A DNA stretch of 64,000 bases from Acidimicrobiia bacterium. GTDB lineage: Bacteria; Actinomycetota; Acidimicrobiia; Acidimicrobiales; AC-14. Shown one piece after another: positions 27,143-41,894 of the stretch (its first letter is position 1; the number at the start of each line of letters is the position of its first letter). Under the pieces are notes generated by a model. The model did no database searches, was not told the DNA's origin, and worked only from the letters and a program-made list of their open reading frames with translations. The translations under genes and the position numbers were made by a program. The stretch covers positions 1-64,000 of the forward strand of contig JAHFUP010000007.1 in assembly GCA_023265025.1 (NCBI GenBank), in the 5' to 3' direction.

Positions 27143-30100
27143 ATGGCACAGGTCTACGTCTCCTCCACCCGTACCGACCTCGGCGAGCACCGCCGGCTGG
27201 TGATCGAGGTCCTCACCCGCATGGGCCACACGCACGTGGCCATGGAGCACTACGTGGCCGAAGGCCGGCCGCCGATCGAGAAGTGCCTCGAGGACGTGGC
27301 CGCGTGCGACATCTACGTCGGGATCGTCGCCTTCCGGTACGGGTCGGTCCCGCCGGGCTACGACCGGTCGTTCACCGAGCTGGAGTTCGACCGGGCGGTC
27401 GAGACCGGGAAGAAGCCCCTGGTCTTCGTGCTGGCGGAGTCCGCTCCGGAGTGGCCGCCGATGCTGTTCGAGTTCGGCGCCATCCAGCGGGTCCTGGACT
27501 TCCGGAGGAAGGTGGCCGACGCCGGCATCGTCGAGTTCTTCTCGACCAAGGACGAGCTGCGCGCCCAGCTCGGCGAGGCCGTGCACCAGTGGGAGCGCCG
27601 GCAGGGCGTGGCGCCGACGCGGCCGGCGACGGACTGGGACCGCTACCGGCAGGCCATCTACGAGGAGCACCGCTGGGTGCGCCTGTCGGTGATCGCCGGC
27701 GCCAAGCAGGACCGCATGGCGCGGGTGCCCCTCACCGAGGTGTTCGCCGCGCCGTTGACCGAGGCCGGCCGCCCGTCCTACGACCTGCCCGACGAGGTGC
27801 TGCGGGCCAAGCGCGCCTTCCTCGGGCTGCCGGCCGTCGCCGAGGACGGCGAAAGCCCTGCCCGACCCGAGGCCGCGGCCGACATCGAGCCTCCGAGGAC
27901 GGAGATGAGCGTGGACGTCCTCGGCCGGGAACGGTTGCAGGTGATCCTCGGTGGGCCGGGGAGCGGGAAGAGCACGCTGCTCCACTACGCCCTGTTGACG
28001 CTCTGCCGGCCTGACCCCCAGCCCACCGACATCCCGGCCCACCTCAGCCATGCGCCCATCCCGTTCCTGATCGAGCTGCGCCAGTACGTGCTCAAGAAGG
28101 CCCCCGACTTCGTCGCCTACATCCTCGACAACAGCCGCGAGCGCTATGGGGTGACCCTCGAACGGGCCGACGTCGAGGCGGTCCTGGCGGAGACGGGCGG
28201 GGCGCTCGTCCTGTTCGACGGGCTCGACGAGATCTTCGAGCGTTCCGAGCGGGCCCGGGCCATCCAGCAGTTCGGGGCGTTCGCCCGCAACGCCGGCGCC
28301 TCGATCGTCGTGACCTCTCGAATCGTCGGCTACGACCAGACCGACCTCGGCCTGGCCGGCTTCCAGCACTACACGCTGCTGAACTTCACCCTCCAGGAGA
28401 TCCGGCGGTTCGTGCCGAACTGGTACCGCTTCTACACGTGGGAGGGCGACCAGCGCGATGCCGCCGGCCTTGTCCGCCGCATCACCGAGAGCCCCCGCCT
28501 ACTCGACCTGGCCGGGAACCCACTGCTGCTCACCATGATGGCGGTGATCTACAAGCACCAGGACCTTCCCGAGCAGCGGTGGCGGCTGTACGAGCGATGC
28601 ACGAGCGTGCTGCTCGAGGACTGGGACCTGAAACGCAAGAGCATCGAGTCGAACGCGCTCCTCCCGCTCGACCTCCCGATCAGAGGTCAGCAGAAGGCCG
28701 AGATCCTCCAGCTCGTGGCCATGTTCATGGTGGCGCACGGCCAGGCCGGTCGTGAGCTGAACGCCGTCGCCTACCGGCCCCTGCTCGGCATCCTCGCCGG
28801 TTACCTGCAACAGAAGTACAGCCGGTCCGAGGGGGAGGCGGAGGCCATCGCCGAGGGCATCCTCCAGCACCTCCGCGAGCGCAGCTCCATCCTCGCCGAG
28901 GTGGGCGAGGGCGTCTTCGGGTTCGTGCACCGGACCTTCATGGAGTACTTCGCGGCCAACCAGTGCCGCGCCGAGTTCAATGCGAGCAAGGCCGACTACC
29001 GCTGGTTGCGGGAGGAGATCTTCGGCGCCCACTGGGAGGCGGACGACTGGCGAGAGATCCTCCTCCTGCTGGTCGCCATGCTCGACGACCAGGGCTCACC
29101 GATGCGCGAGGTGGTCGACCACCTGTGGCACGGGTTCAAGCGCCGGCCGCAGACGAACGTCGTGTTCGCCGCTCGTTGCCTGGCCGAGTCGGCGACCATC
29201 GAGGACAGCGACTGGGCCGGGCGGCTGATGACCGAGCTCGTCCTGACACTGGCGAAGGAGGCGGCCCGGACCAAGGCGCGAGTCGTCGAGGGCCGCGACC
29301 TCACCGCTGCGCTCCTCGAGGACGGGCTGGTCGCCCTCTCCGCGCTGGCGCCGCTGGTCCCGCCGCCCACCGAGGCCCGGGACGCGATCGCCGGCCTCGC
29401 CCAATCGCCGCGCCGGGCGACTCGGATCGCGGGATGGCAGATGGAGCTCGCAATCCGGACGCGCGACGAGCGGCGGGCGTTCGCCATCAACGCGCTGCAG
29501 GACGCGGAGGAGTCGGTGCGCCGGGGGGCCATCGCCGCCCTCAGCCGGGAGTGGCCCGGGAACGCGATGGTCGAAGATGCCCTGATCGACGTCGTCCGGC
29601 GGGACGGCAACACGCGGGTCCGTCAGGACGCGCTGGAGGCGCTCGCCCGGTCCTGGTCTCCGGGCGGGCGGCTGCTGGGCGCCATCGCCGAGCGGGCCGG
29701 CCAGGAGCGGGCGTATTCGTTCACGTCGTGGCTGGTCGGCTACGTCGGCCGTCATTGGCGCCGCGACCTCGGAGCCCTCCAGGTCATCCTGCACCTCACA
29801 GGCGCACAGGAGAAGGCGCCGGCGGAGTACGACAGATCCGATGTCGCCGAGGCCGCGGTGTCGGCGTTGGCCGCCGGGTACGCAGGCGACCCGAGGGCGC
29901 TGGAGGTCCTGCTGACGGCGGCGGCCGAGGAGAGCGACCCGACGCTCGCCCACGTCGCCATGCTGGCGTTGGCGACCGCGTGGCCCGAGGAACCTCGGGT
30001 CCGGGAGCTCGTCCGGAGGGTCCTCGCCGAGGCCTCGGACTACGAGGCGCGGGCGCTGGCCGTCAGCGCCCTGCACCGCATGCCATCGGCCGACAGCCGC

Positions 30101-31084
30101 GCTGTCCTCACCGCGGTCGTCGACGACGGGCGCGCCGACGTGTCGCAGCGGATGCTGGCCATGGTCAGTCTCTGGGCGACGTCGTCGGATGACCCGGGGC
30201 TCGCTCGGGGTTTGCTCGAAGCGGCGGAACGCGGTCCCGCGGCCCTCGCCGGGACCGCGCTGCAGCTGGTGGCCGGCGGCGGGTCGGCGGGGTTGCAGTA
30301 CCTCCATGTGGACCTCCACCGGTTCCTGCCCGCAGTTCCCTCCGCGCGCCGGGGCGGGCCGCCGCCGATCGCAGGGGCACGCCAGCTCGTCCTCGATGCC
30401 GCGCTCCGCCACCGCGACCCGGCGATGCGGACGCACGGCTTGGCGATTCTGAGGAGGGTGTGGGACGACGGGGACAGCAGCGCCGTCCTGCGCCGCACCG
30501 CGGCCGAGGATCCCGACCCCCGGATCCGGACAGCCGCCGTCGAGATCCTCGGCCGGCCATCCGAATGGCCCAGCGACGACATGTGGTGGTTCATGAGCGA
30601 CGAGGATCGGGAGTTCCTGGCCCGGCGGGGATTTCTCGACGCCGATCCGATGGTTCGCGCCGCGGCGCTGAGAGCTGCGGAACGGCCGATGATCGCGGTT
30701 GGCCTCATTCCCTCGGTGCCGTCGCGCCCGTCGGAGGTCGGTGAGCCTGCTCGCGCCGCGGCTGTTGCCACGTTGGCCGGGCTTCACCATGTCATGGGGA
30801 TCGACGGGTTCGCGGGGTTCTGGTCCCTGATGGTCAACGAGGTGCTGACCCGAATGGGAGTGCCACCACGGCTGTTGGACGACGAGACGGTGGGCATCCT
30901 CTTGGCTCTCCTTGCCGATCCGTGGTTCACCGTCCGCACCACCGCGGTCGTCGGACTGGCGAGCAGCGCGGTGACGCGAGAGGACATACGGGCGGCCATC
31001 AAGCGCTTCGCCGCCGACGACCCGGACGAGGACGCACGCCACGTCGCCACCGAGGTCCTCGACTGGGTGGAGCGGCAGCATTGA
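27143..31084 (+). CDS. DUF4062-NACHT-HEAT-repeat protein (bacterial NLR-like, candidate anti-phage protein)
   Basis: ATG at 27143, 1313 aa. N-terminus AQVYVSSTRTDLGEHRRLVIEVLTRMGHTHVAMEHYVAEGRPPIEKCLEDVAACDIYVGIVAFRYG is DUF4062-like; Walker A VILGGPGSGKSTLLHY; NACHT Walker B GALVLFDGLDEIFE; SASIVVTSRIVGYD; long C-terminal helical HEAT-like repeats with R(A/V)xAAxAL patterns. Confidence 0.92.
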   Translation: MAQVYVSSTRTDLGEHRRLVIEVLTRMGHTHVAMEHYVAEGRPPIEKCLEDVAACDIYVGIVAFRYGSVPPGYDRSFTELEFDRAVETGKKPLVFVLAESAPEWPPMLFEFGAIQRVLDFRRKVADAGIVEFFSTKDELRAQLGEAVHQWERRQGVAPTRPATDWDRYRQAIYEEHRWVRLSVIAGAKQDRMARVPLTEVFAAPLTEAGRPSYDLPDEVLRAKRAFLGLPAVAEDGESPARPEAAADIEPPRTEMSVDVLGRERLQVILGGPGSGKSTLLHYALLTLCRPDPQPTDIPAHLSHAPIPFLIELRQYVLKKAPDFVAYILDNSRERYGVTLERADVEAVLAETGGALVLFDGLDEIFERSERARAIQQFGAFARNAGASIVVTSRIVGYDQTDLGLAGFQHYTLLNFTLQEIRRFVPNWYRFYTWEGDQRDAAGLVRRITESPRLLDLAGNPLLLTMMAVIYKHQDLPEQRWRLYERCTSVLLEDWDLKRKSIESNALLPLDLPIRGQQKAEILQLVAMFMVAHGQAGRELNAVAYRPLLGILAGYLQQKYSRSEGEAEAIAEGILQHLRERSSILAEVGEGVFGFVHRTFMEYFAANQCRAEFNASKADYRWLREEIFGAHWEADDWREILLLLVAMLDDQGSPMREVVDHLWHGFKRRPQTNVVFAARCLAESATIEDSDWAGRLMTELVLTLAKEAARTKARVVEGRDLTAALLEDGLVALSALAPLVPPPTEARDAIAGLAQSPRRATRIAGWQMELAIRTRDERRAFAINALQDAEESVRRGAIAALSREWPGNAMVEDALIDVVRRDGNTRVRQDALEALARSWSPGGRLLGAIAERAGQERAYSFTSWLVGYVGRHWRRDLGALQVILHLTGAQEKAPAEYDRSDVAEAAVSALAAGYAGDPRALEVLLTAAAEESDPTLAHVAMLALATAWPEEPRVRELVRRVLAEASDYEARALAVSALHRMPSADSRAVLTAVVDDGRADVSQRMLAMVSLWATSSDDPGLARGLLEAAERGPAALAGTALQLVAGGGSAGLQYLHVDLHRFLPAVPSARRGGPPPIAGARQLVLDAALRHRDPAMRTHGLAILRRVWDDGDSSAVLRRTAAEDPDPRIRTAAVEILGRPSEWPSDDMWWFMSDEDREFLARRGFLDADPMVRAAALRAAERPMIAVGLIPSVPSRPSEVGEPARAAAVATLAGLHHVMGIDGFAGFWSLMVNEVLTRMGVPPRLLDDETVGILLALLADPWFTVRTTAVVGLASSAVTREDIRAAIKRFAADDPDEDARHVATEVLDWVERQH

Positions 31085-31100: not shown

Positions 31101-31838
31101 TCAGCCCTTGAGGTCGTCGAGCCACGAATGGGTGGACAGCCCGCCGTCGACCACCCAATTGGCGCCGGTGACGTAGCGCGACTCGTCCGAGAGGAGCACG
31201 CCCACGACCTCGGCCACCTCCTTCGGCGTGCCCGAACGCCCGCCGAGCGGGATGCGCTCATGCAGGGGCTCGTTCCGGCCCCCGCCCTCTGAGATCGCCC
31301 CCGGGGACACGGCGTTGACCCGGATCGAATGGGGCCCGAGCTCCGCAGCCATCTCGACGACCAACATGGCGATGGCGGCCTTCGACGCCGAGTACGCCGG
31401 GAAGCCGTGCCGGCGGTGGTCGTGGGCCGAGGAGATCCACACGATGGCACCCCCCTCACGCCGTCGTACCAGGTCGGCCGCGATCGCCCTCGTCATAAGC
31501 CAAGGGGTGAGGAGGTTGGTGGTGAAGACCCGGTTGAGCTCGCCGGCGGTCGTGTCCAGAAAGCGCTCCGTGCTCGTCACGCCCACGTTGTTGACGACGA
31601 AGGAGATGGGCCCGAAGCGACGCAGGAGCTGGGCGGCGAGCGCCTCGCCGTCGACCACGCCGAAGTCGGCCCCGATCGCCGCGCAACCGAGCTCGGCCGT
31701 GAGCCGGTCCAGCGCGTCGCCGTCGCGGTCCACGGCCACTACCCGCACCTCGGCGGCGGCCAGGTGGCGGGCGATTCCCCGACCGATGTTGGCGCCGGCC
31801 CCCGTCACGACGGCCGTCCGGCCTGCCACACCGCGCAC
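31101..31838 (-). CDS. SDR-family oxidoreductase
   Basis: TAVVTGAGANIGRGIARHLA, YSASKAAIAML, VVNNVGVT, C-terminal YVTGANWVVDGGLSTHSW. Confidence 0.93.
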   Translation of the reverse strand: MRGVAGRTAVVTGAGANIGRGIARHLAAAEVRVVAVDRDGDALDRLTAELGCAAIGADFGVVDGEALAAQLLRRFGPISFVVNNVGVTSTERFLDTTAGELNRVFTTNLLTPWLMTRAIAADLVRRREGGAIVWISSAHDHRRHGFPAYSASKAAIAMLVVEMAAELGPHSIRVNAVSPGAISEGGGRNEPLHERIPLGGRSGTPKEVAEVVGVLLSDESRYVTGANWVVDGGLSTHSWLDDLKG

Positions 31839-32693: not shown

Positions 32694-32765
32694 CGGGGAG
32701 TGGCGCAGTGGTAGCGCACCTGCTTTGGGGGCAGGCGGTCGGGGGTTCAAATCCCCCCTCCCCGA
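32694..32765 (+). tRNA. tRNA-Pro (anticodon TGG)
   Basis: CGGGGAG...CTCCCCG acceptor stem; anticodon arm CCTGC-TTTGGGG-GCAGG; T arm GGGGG-TTCAAAT-CCCCC. Confidence 0.95.
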
Positions 32766-32775
32766 CGGACACCCT

Positions 32776-32849
<74 letters not shown>

Positions 32850-39292: not shown

Positions 39293-40837
39293 ATGCGCCT
39301 TTCCATCCTGATGAGACCGGAAGTGATCGCATTCTCAATACTGATCATCGGGACGGCTATCGTGACGCTTCGAATGACACGACCGGAAGGCCGGTTCGCC
39401 CGGCGCAAGGAGGGCCGCGGCGGACGGGCGGTGGCTGCTGCCGGCGGTGGCGGCGAAACCGCCTTCAAAGTCGAGCAGGTCAACCGCAGCGACCCCAAGT
39501 CGCGCATGGAGTCGGTGACCTTCGCCGACGTCGCCGGCCTCGAGGAGGCCATCTCCGAGCTGCGTGAGGTCGTCGACTACCTCCGCGACCCCCACCGCTT
39601 CGAGCGGCTGGGTGCGCATATGCCCAAGGGCGTCCTGCTCTACGGGATGCCCGGCTGCGGGAAGACGCTGCTGGCCCGGGCCCTCGCCGGCGAGACGGGC
39701 GTTCCCTTCTACTTCGTGTCGGCTACCAGCTTCGTGGAGAAGTTCGTCGGCCTCGGCGCCTCCCGCGTCCGCCAGCTGTTCGAGGCGGCCAAGAGTTCGG
39801 CGCCCTGCATCATCTTCATCGACGAGCTCGACGCCATCGGCCGCCACCGCAGCGCCGACACCACGGGGGAGCGGGAGTTCGACCACACCCTGAACCAGCT
39901 GCTCGTCGAGCTCGACGGCTTCGGAGGCTCACCGGGTGTGATGATCATCGGCGCCACCAACCGACCCGAGCTGATCGACAGTGCCCTGCTGCGCCCGGGC
40001 CGGTTCGACCGCCGCATCCAGGTGGACCGGCCCGACCGCGGCGGCCGCGAGAAAATCCTTCGCCTCCACGCCGACACCCGCCCGGTGTCCCGGCGGATCG
40101 ATTGGGGCGAGGTCGCGGCCCACACCGCCGGCCTCACCGCCGCCGAGCTGGCCAACATCGTCAACGAGGCCTGCCTGCTCGCCGCCCGCCGGCATCGCGA
40201 CCGGGTCGCGCCCGAGGACGTCGACGAGGCCGTCTCCCGGGTGCTGGCGGGCACCCGCAGCGCCCGACTGATGTCCGACGACGAGAAGGAGCTCGTGGGC
40301 GTGCACGAGGCGGGCCACGCCCTGCTCTCGGTGCTGCTCCGGGGCGTCCAGCCGCCGTCGCGGGTGTCGATCGTGAACCGGGGGGCGGCCTTCGGGCGCT
40401 CGCCGTGGTCCACCACCGACGACCGCGAGGTCCTGACCAAGCGCGAGCTCATGGCCCAGCTGATCGTCCTCATGGGCGGGCGGGCCGCCGAGATGCAGGT
40501 CTTCGGCCAGCCCAGCACCCGGGCCGAGGACGACCTCGAGCACGCCGCCGATCTCGCCCGCCGCATGGTCGAGCGCTTGGCCATGACCGGCCGCTTCGAG
40601 CTGGCCGGCCGCAAGGACGAAGGCACCCGCGGCAATGACGACGGCGAGGGAGGCAAGGAGGTCCGCGAGCTGCTCGAAAAGGCCGAGCAGGCCGCCCGCA
40701 CCATCCTGGGCGACAACAGCGGCGACCTGCGCACCATCGCCGAGGCGCTGGTGCTGAAGGAGACCCTCACCGCCGCCGAGCTCCAGGACATCGTCCGGGG
40801 AGGCGGCGGGGGCGGCGCCTTCGAGCTTTCCAGCTAA
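39293..40837 (+). CDS. FtsH-like AAA+ metalloprotease with a minimal single-TM N-terminus
   Basis: [54 protein letters not shown] zinc motif, AEDDLEHA third-ligand region; N-terminus shows only one TM segment. Confidence 0.9.
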   Translation: MRLSILMRPEVIAFSILIIGTAIVTLRMTRPEGRFARRKEGRGGRAVAAAGGGGETAFKVEQVNRSDPKSRMESVTFADVAGLEEAISELREVVDYLRDPHRFERLGAHMPKGVLLYGMPGCGKTLLARALAGETGVPFYFVSATSFVEKFVGLGASRVRQLFEAAKSSAPCIIFIDELDAIGRHRSADTTGEREFDHTLNQLLVELDGFGGSPGVMIIGATNRPELIDSALLRPGRFDRRIQVDRPDRGGREKILRLHADTRPVSRRIDWGEVAAHTAGLTAAELANIVNEACLLAARRHRDRVAPEDVDEAVSRVLAGTRSARLMSDDEKELVGVHEAGHALLSVLLRGVQPPSRVSIVNRGAAFGRSPWSTTDDREVLTKRELMAQLIVLMGGRAAEMQVFGQPSTRAEDDLEHAADLARRMVERLAMTGRFELAGRKDEGTRGNDDGEGGKEVRELLEKAEQAARTILGDNSGDLRTIAEALVLKETLTAAELQDIVRGGGGGGAFELSS

Positions 40838-41045: not shown

Positions 41046-41894
41046 CTAGAAACACAGGAAGAGGATGCACTGCTTGGCCGGCGCCGCTGCCGCCGCCGGC
41101 GCCGGCGCAGTGGCCACCGCATCCAGGAAGAGCGGCGTGCCGTCCCAGCCGGCCATCACCGGGTGCTGGGCACCCTGGCGCTGGTTCGCCGTGATCATCG
41201 GGGCCCGGGCGGCGGCGAAGGCGAAGGCCTCTTGCACCGATACCCTGCCGTCGCGGTTGGCATCGCCCTCGCCGTTGACGATGGCCTTCTCGATCTCCAG
41301 CAGCGTGAACACCGACTGCTGCTGGTCGGGCAGCTCGTAGGACTTTTCGTTGGCCCTCGACGAGCCAGTGAACAGGCGATTGGGCGCCGAGATGCCCTCG
41401 TCGAAGCCGGCCGCCTCGCAGCCCGAGATGTCCACCCACGCCTGACCCCTCAACTGGCGCACCTTGCCGGCCAGCTCGGTGTCGGCGATGAAGGCGTTGT
41501 CGTGGGGCCACAGGTACTCGGTCGAGCCGACCTGCTTGACGTGCCCGGAGTAGTGGATAACTGATAGCGACGTCGGCCCGCTGTGGTCGACGAGCCACTG
41601 CAGGCCGCCGCGGATGGCCCCGGCTGTCGCCGCACTCTCCGTGAGCACCTTGATGTGGTCGTCCGCCCAACCTGACTTCAGGAGGGCTTGGCGGAAGTCG
41701 GCGGCGTCGGCCACCGCCCCGAAGTTGGGCCGCGTCCGGCCCTGGAAGTGGTCGATGCCGATGATCAGCGCCCACCGCTCGCCGGCCGCGGGCGGCGAGG
41801 CGGCCGAAGCGGACACCGCCCCGCCGAGCGCTCCGGCGACCAGGAACGGGAGGAGCAGAAGGGCGCGGCGCATGACGATGTTCATACCACGCAC
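41046..41894 (-). CDS. Secreted caspase/metacaspase-family protein with an EF-hand-like loop
   Basis: Signal peptide LLLLPFLVAGALGGAVSASAA; WALIIGIDHFQG; His/Cys dyad SVIHYSGHVKQ and WVDISGCEAAG; DANRDGRVSVQEAF calcium-loop-like. Confidence 0.85.
   Translation of the reverse strand: MRGMNIVMRRALLLLPFLVAGALGGAVSASAASPPAAGERWALIIGIDHFQGRTRPNFGAVADAADFRQALLKSGWADDHIKVLTESAATAGAIRGGLQWLVDHSGPTSLSVIHYSGHVKQVGSTEYLWPHDNAFIADTELAGKVRQLRGQAWVDISGCEAAGFDEGISAPNRLFTGSSRANEKSYELPDQQQSVFTLLEIEKAIVNGEGDANRDGRVSVQEAFAFAAARAPMITANQRQGAQHPVMAGWDGTPLFLDAVATAPAPAAAAAPAKQCILFLCF

Follow-up and report, generated by a model that had tools for sequence, protein, structure and literature searches.

DUF4062 has recently been described as a TIR-like NAD hydrolase (NADase) family, of which KpSwz (Swarozyc) and human TEP1 are experimentally NADases (PMC13174449, a preprint of May 2026). 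Binding of a phage portal to the AUX domain of KpSwz leads to NAD+ depletion, yielding ADP-ribose and nicotinamide, and protects E. coli from phages; TEP1, in the RNA vault, hydrolyses NAD(P)+ and gave no further derivatives (PMC13174449). In TEP1 and in human NWD1, NWD2 and NPHP3, DUF4062 stands directly before a NACHT domain, after which come a helical region and then repeats, and activation of TEP1 by NACHT oligomerisation has been offered by the authors of PMC13174449 as speculation only. Among bacterial systems, bNACHT anti-phage proteins follow an effector-NACHT-sensor plan (PMC12169576), and the HEAT repeats of the SIR2-HEAT NADase DSR2 contact its phage activator (PMC11263360). Here we analyse a gene for a 1313-amino-acid (aa) protein that joins DUF4062, NACHT and HEAT repeats, encoded at positions 27143-31084 of the first 64,000 nucleotides (the window) of contig JAHFUP010000007.1 from an Acidimicrobiia bacterium (GCA_023265025.1).

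We propose, with a probability of roughly two in three, that this protein is a NACHT-gated, NAD+-depleting, single-gene anti-phage receptor of NLR-like type, with DUF4062 and NACHT in the same order as in human TEP1 and NWD1. Its parts, with the evidence for each, are as follows.

27143..31084, + strand: whole gene, DUF4062-NACHT-winged-helix domain-HEAT, 1313 aa (intact open reading frame (ORF), Pfam, codon GC, start-site homology)
27149..27592, + strand: DUF4062 TIR-like (predicted NADase) domain, aa 3-150 (Pfam, PDB sequence matches, AlphaFold2/Foldseek, residue conservation)
27629..27925, + strand: linker/pre-NACHT region, aa 163-261, DWDRYRQAI..WVRLSVIAG..LTEVF (family alignment)
27938..28423, + strand: NACHT NTPase, aa 266-427 (Pfam, motifs, Foldseek)
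28433..29212, + strand: winged-helix/helical arm of the NACHT module, aa 431-690, carrying the conserved motif FVHRTFxEYF, which includes H596 (family alignment, model)
29213..31081, + strand: HEAT-repeat array, aa 691-1313, proposed sensor (Pfam, identity profile, model)

The original prediction of a single 1313-aa ORF with DUF4062, NACHT and about 600 aa of HEAT repeats was borne out: the ORF is intact at 27143-31084, Pfam recovers all three components with a HEAT array of about 620 aa, and the motifs GGPGSGKSTLL, GALVLFDGLDEIFE and IVVTSR are all present in the protein. The codon-position GC of 0.72/0.50/0.92 is the pattern of a coding gene. Although the frame stays open upstream as far as TTG 26705, we place the start at ATG 27143, because the Shine-Dalgarno-like GGGAGGGG directly precedes it and this is also where each of the six close homologues starts (M-A/S-K/R-V/I-Y-V/I-S-S-T).

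The evidence for the effector lies in the N-terminal domain. The DUF4062 model (PF13271) matches aa 3-85 with E 2e-23 and 82.6 bits, against a curated cut-off of 24.7, and the domain matches KpSwz (E 2e-7 as a single sequence, 7.6e-18 as a profile) and human TEP1 (E 6.6e-10). With the profile, KpSwz (10wc, 11cq, 11cv) and TEP1 (11gz) are its only sequence relatives in the PDB. An AlphaFold2 model of aa 1-166 (pLDDT 90) has TIR domains among its top Foldseek matches (plant RPS4/RRS1 and SARM1), with deoxyribosyltransferase-like (NDT/DNPH1) and flavodoxin folds close behind, so that fold alone cannot separate TIR from NDT. The fold comparison suggested earlier thus placed TIR among the best matches without being decisive by itself, and the two are told apart by the sequence matches to KpSwz and TEP1.

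Chain numbering locates the predicted catalytic residue. For TEP1, a chain offset of 893 fits R908, R954 and R976 and makes E1008 the second Glu of T-E-M-E; for KpSwz, an offset of 13 gives T-E-K-A, with Ala at the site of the E97A mutation, and residue 71 is Asp, as in PMC13174449. With numbering deduced from these offsets, TEP1 E1008 and KpSwz E97 both map onto E81, a position occupied by Glu in each of the 31 family sequences. E79 is likewise Glu in 31 of 31, and had appeared as the catalytic Glu in a pairwise alignment; we rejected it since the offsets point to E81. R65, the equivalent of TEP1 R976, is Arg in 30 of the 31. The DUF4062 head of the 1313-aa protein is therefore a predicted TIR-like NADase.

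The likeness to Swarozyc is confined to this head. KpSwz shares the N-terminal TIR-like domain, aligned over aa 3-150 with the catalytic Glu kept, but it is a protein of about 330 aa with a helical stalk and a helix-turn-helix (HTH)/winged AUX domain (PMC13174449), and has neither NACHT nor HEAT. Membership of Swarozyc was rejected, as the similarity to KpSwz ends at aa 150 (chain position 155 of 326) and NACHT and HEAT take the place of AUX.

The central module is that of a NACHT switch. In the protein search the NACHT model matched aa 266-427 with E 9e-6 and 26.0 bits, slightly below the curated cut-off of 26.7, and it reached 30.6 bits, above that cut-off, when run on the genome. The motifs are Walker A GGPGSGKST (K276), Walker B DGLDE (359-363) and TSR (391-393); K276, DGLDE, the S392-R393 pair within TSR and H596 of the winged helix show no variation across a 21-sequence alignment. 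For a model of aa 1-1000 (pLDDT 81), the best PDB match by Foldseek was NLRP3. The linker at aa 163-261 is conserved across the close family and takes a weaker form in relatives with NNH2 and SIR2 heads.

HEAT_2 matches five stretches of the C-terminal part (E 8e-19). Within the close family, pairwise identity averages 45-60% outside the HEAT array (DUF4062 53%, NACHT 51%, arm 60%, the highest) and falls to 29, 24 and 23% over successive thirds of the array; total protein lengths also differ across the close family, in which the L097 protein may be truncated. This low identity would look like that of a variable sensor, and relaxed constraint on the repeats would appear similar. With its tripartite order, exchangeable N-terminal effector and variable C-terminal end, the 1313-aa protein has the plan of an NLR-like receptor.

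To delimit the family, we ran an alignment of the NACHT-arm core against 85,000 species genomes and obtained 79 loci; a single-sequence scan of genome contigs had returned no homologues. DUF4062 forms the N-terminus of all six close homologues, which come from Lentzea, Kutzneria, Planomonospora, Paractinoplanes, Variovorax and an uncultured proteobacterium and show 40-53% identity along most of the sequence. Among 78 core relatives scanned, the N-terminus was DUF4062 in 29 and NNH2 in 45; an Azotobacter plasmid protein carries a SIR2_2 head on a related core, and in four actinomycete proteins no effector was recognised. In a tree of the core, the 1313-aa protein falls within a seven-member clade with support 100, and the DUF4062 label needs four changes, at least three of them forced by supported branches. 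Heads have thus been exchanged or lost repeatedly. Wider DUF4062-NACHT relatives occur in Methanosarcina, Chloroflexota and KSB1. We conclude that a distinct family joins DUF4062 to NACHT in Actinomycetota and Pseudomonadota, with archaea among its wider relatives.

Several of these relatives are of interest in their own right. Archaeal DUF4062-NACHT-HEAT proteins from Methanosarcina and others (L103, L104, L107, L116) lie far outside Actinomycetota. Relatives of 2000-2500 aa in Streptosporangiaceae and Frankia (L105, L108, L111, L106) have a divergent DUF4062 subtype, with SHT-S-D/E and not SST-x-D, and retain the catalytic-type Glu; their greater length suggests additional C-terminal domains. 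The SIR2_2-NACHT-HEAT protein of Azotobacter chroococcum (L049:7323-10517, plasmid NZ_CP066311.1), with a possibly NAD-directed head, is encoded beside insertion sequence elements; its related NACHT-arm core matches about 60% of the 1313-aa protein at about 30% identity and it too ends in HEAT repeats, but a SIR2-like head stands in place of DUF4062. The genome of the 1313-aa protein itself encodes a second DUF4062 protein, DUF4062-STAND(NB-ARC/AAA_16)-TPR, of 927 aa (L003:8102-10885, - strand, contig C123), which has the DUF4062 domain alone in common with it, at 43%. The 3' end of that gene is overlapped by a TPR-S/patatin gene (L003:5769-8180, - strand), and the two are likely a two-gene conflict system.

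The gene is accessory. No full-length match turned up in 298 genomes sampled from the order or in 397 from the phylum, and the gene is missing from both sampled congeners and from seven other sampled members of the bacterial family. The congeners are collinear with the window on the clpX-clpP-tig-MoxR side up to about 26.5-27.0 kb, and become homologous again from tRNA-Pro/tRNA-Gly (32694-32849). In the interval, both congeners have one gene of 762-763 aa, with no match in the window, instead of the NACHT gene and an adjoining SDR oxidoreductase gene (31101-31838, - strand). The best congener relative of the SDR gene is only about 39% identical, so it occupies the same variable slot. A different gene between collinear flanks thus marks the locus as a variable slot, where the event would have been either a gain here or a replacement in the congeners. 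The congener gene (L043:11256-13547, - strand; L044:1542-3830, + strand) is 82% identical between the two and by eye resembles one for a membrane protein, part of which is spermidine-synthase-like. The distribution of the NACHT gene is patchy and horizontal, and the Variovorax homologue sits between transposase genes. Insertion at a tRNA site was considered and rejected, as no 12-14-base att-like repeat links the tRNAs to either the left edge or the gap, and no tRNA genes were found beside the close homologues. The gene gives no GC island signal (0.68-0.75, window 0.71), and no homologue was found in phage records.

In the mechanism we envisage, the HEAT array would bind a ligand associated with infection, the likeliest candidate being a structural protein of the phage. 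Nucleotide exchange and oligomerisation of the NACHT module would follow, gathering the N-terminal TIR-like domains; the clustered heads would hydrolyse NAD+, and the cell would halt before phage release. For the 1313-aa protein we infer NADase activity, oligomeric activation, a phage trigger and protection. The assignment of DUF4062 as effector, NACHT as switch and HEAT as sensor, as first put forward, is well supported because of the homology to KpSwz and TEP1, the invariant Glu, the swapping of heads, the fast divergence of the HEAT array and the patchy horizontal distribution; the accompanying idea of defence-island enrichment found no support.

Three points weigh against the proposal. NWD1, NWD2 and NPHP3 were NADase-inactive in the assay in which TEP1 was active (PMC13174449), so a DUF4062-NACHT architecture does not guarantee catalysis. 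The AUX domain by which KpSwz senses the portal is lacking in the 1313-aa protein. Finally, no defence-island association was seen among 91 homologue neighbours and 48 window genes, a limited sample with no matched control, which makes the neighbourhood result weak evidence either way. The PADLOC matches among the neighbours of the gene and its homologues were almost only to generic AAA, ABC, kinase or HTH models, or to housekeeping genes.

The other described systems differ from this protein in one or more modules. Several of the human DUF4062-NACHT proteins carry WD40 in place of HEAT, and TEP1 acts in the RNA vault. The bNACHT proteins described in PMC12169576 have PD-(D/E)XK or no discernible effector and SNaCT/NCH1 C-termini, and none has DUF4062. 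DSR2 likewise pairs a NADase head with a HEAT region, but the head is SIR2 and NACHT is not among the domains given in PMC11263360. A Treponema azotonutricium DUF4062/NACHT/TPR protein, mentioned only in passing in 2015 (PMC4452313), has the DUF4062-NACHT-repeat order in a bacterium, but with TPR repeats.

DUF4062 is not named in the bacterial conflict-system literature of PMC7159879, PMC8195603 and PMC10907252. In the literature searched, we found no work on the function of any prokaryotic DUF4062-NACHT protein and no report of DUF4062-NACHT-HEAT, although the supplements of PMC13174449, outside that search, may list the architecture. The earlier statement that no mechanism is characterised holds for the architecture as a whole, but for DUF4062 itself it has been overtaken by PMC13174449. 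The modules are thus individually known, while a bacterial DUF4062 NADase, NACHT switch and HEAT sensor in one characterised protein was not found. It is reasonably probable that a prokaryotic family exists in which NACHT gates a DUF4062 NADase under a HEAT sensor, with DUF4062 and SIR2-like heads interchangeable, as a counterpart of TEP1/NWD1. If so, it would offer a simple test system for the control of DUF4062 by NACHT, a step still speculative for vault TEP1: the same pair occurs in free-living prokaryotes, and homologues that combine this core with different heads are natural controls, so that this control becomes testable. It would also be a further case of NLR modularity in bacteria and archaea.

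The same sensor and NADase chemistry could instead serve signalling, with an ADP-ribose derivative made by DUF4062 acting on a separate effector, as in Thoeris. Signal synthesis is within the repertoire of TIR domains, other enzymes share an operon with some DUF4062 proteins (PMC13174449), and the TPR-S/patatin gene beside the second DUF4062-STAND protein is a possible responder. We nevertheless consider this unlikely, given that no conserved partner gene lies beside the 1313-aa gene or its close homologues and that KpSwz and TEP1 gave the simple products noted above. Quite unlikely, too, is a STAND switch for conflict or signalling whose NADase head is active but which is aimed elsewhere than at phages, for instance in stress-, plasmid- or rival-triggered cell death. 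The lack of a visible defence island would suit it, as would the presence of homologues in Lentzea, Kutzneria and Planomonospora, Actinomycetota of multicellular habit in which such conflict systems are reportedly common (PMC7159879). However, a patchy distribution across phyla and the exchange of toxic heads fit anti-invader systems, and the DUF4062 and bNACHT relatives tested to date act against phages (PMC13174449, PMC12169576).

That DUF4062 serves for adaptor binding or oligomerisation and has no catalytic role, as the inactivity of NWD1, NWD2 and NPHP3 in vitro may indicate for those proteins, is very improbable here: E81 is invariant, R65 is almost so, and relatives swap DUF4062 for SIR2_2, a family that includes NADases. 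A core or housekeeping regulator with no conflict role, as the surrounding clpX/clpP/tig/MurJ genes might suggest, is already contradicted by the absence of the gene from congeners whose neighbouring genes are collinear, and the sampled order and phylum exclude the vertically conserved housekeeping gene that the original prediction had named as its refutation.

PADLOC has no model for the 1313-aa protein, the best match being mad8 (E 0.003, 15.2 bits). Two matches near homologues were rejected as defence evidence: the strongest, mad3/mad8 at L097, is a UvrA gene, and a BrxL match is very probably a Lon protease. The DUF4062-NACHT gene of Kutzneria has a divergently transcribed neighbour for a 959-aa TIR_2...WD40 protein (L099:2540-5419, - strand), placing two possible immune receptors side by side. 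Within the window, a stand-alone caspase-like (Peptidase_C14) gene lies at 41046-41894 (- strand), flanked by genes for an FtsH-like AAA-M41 protein (39293-40837) and a hybrid histidine kinase.

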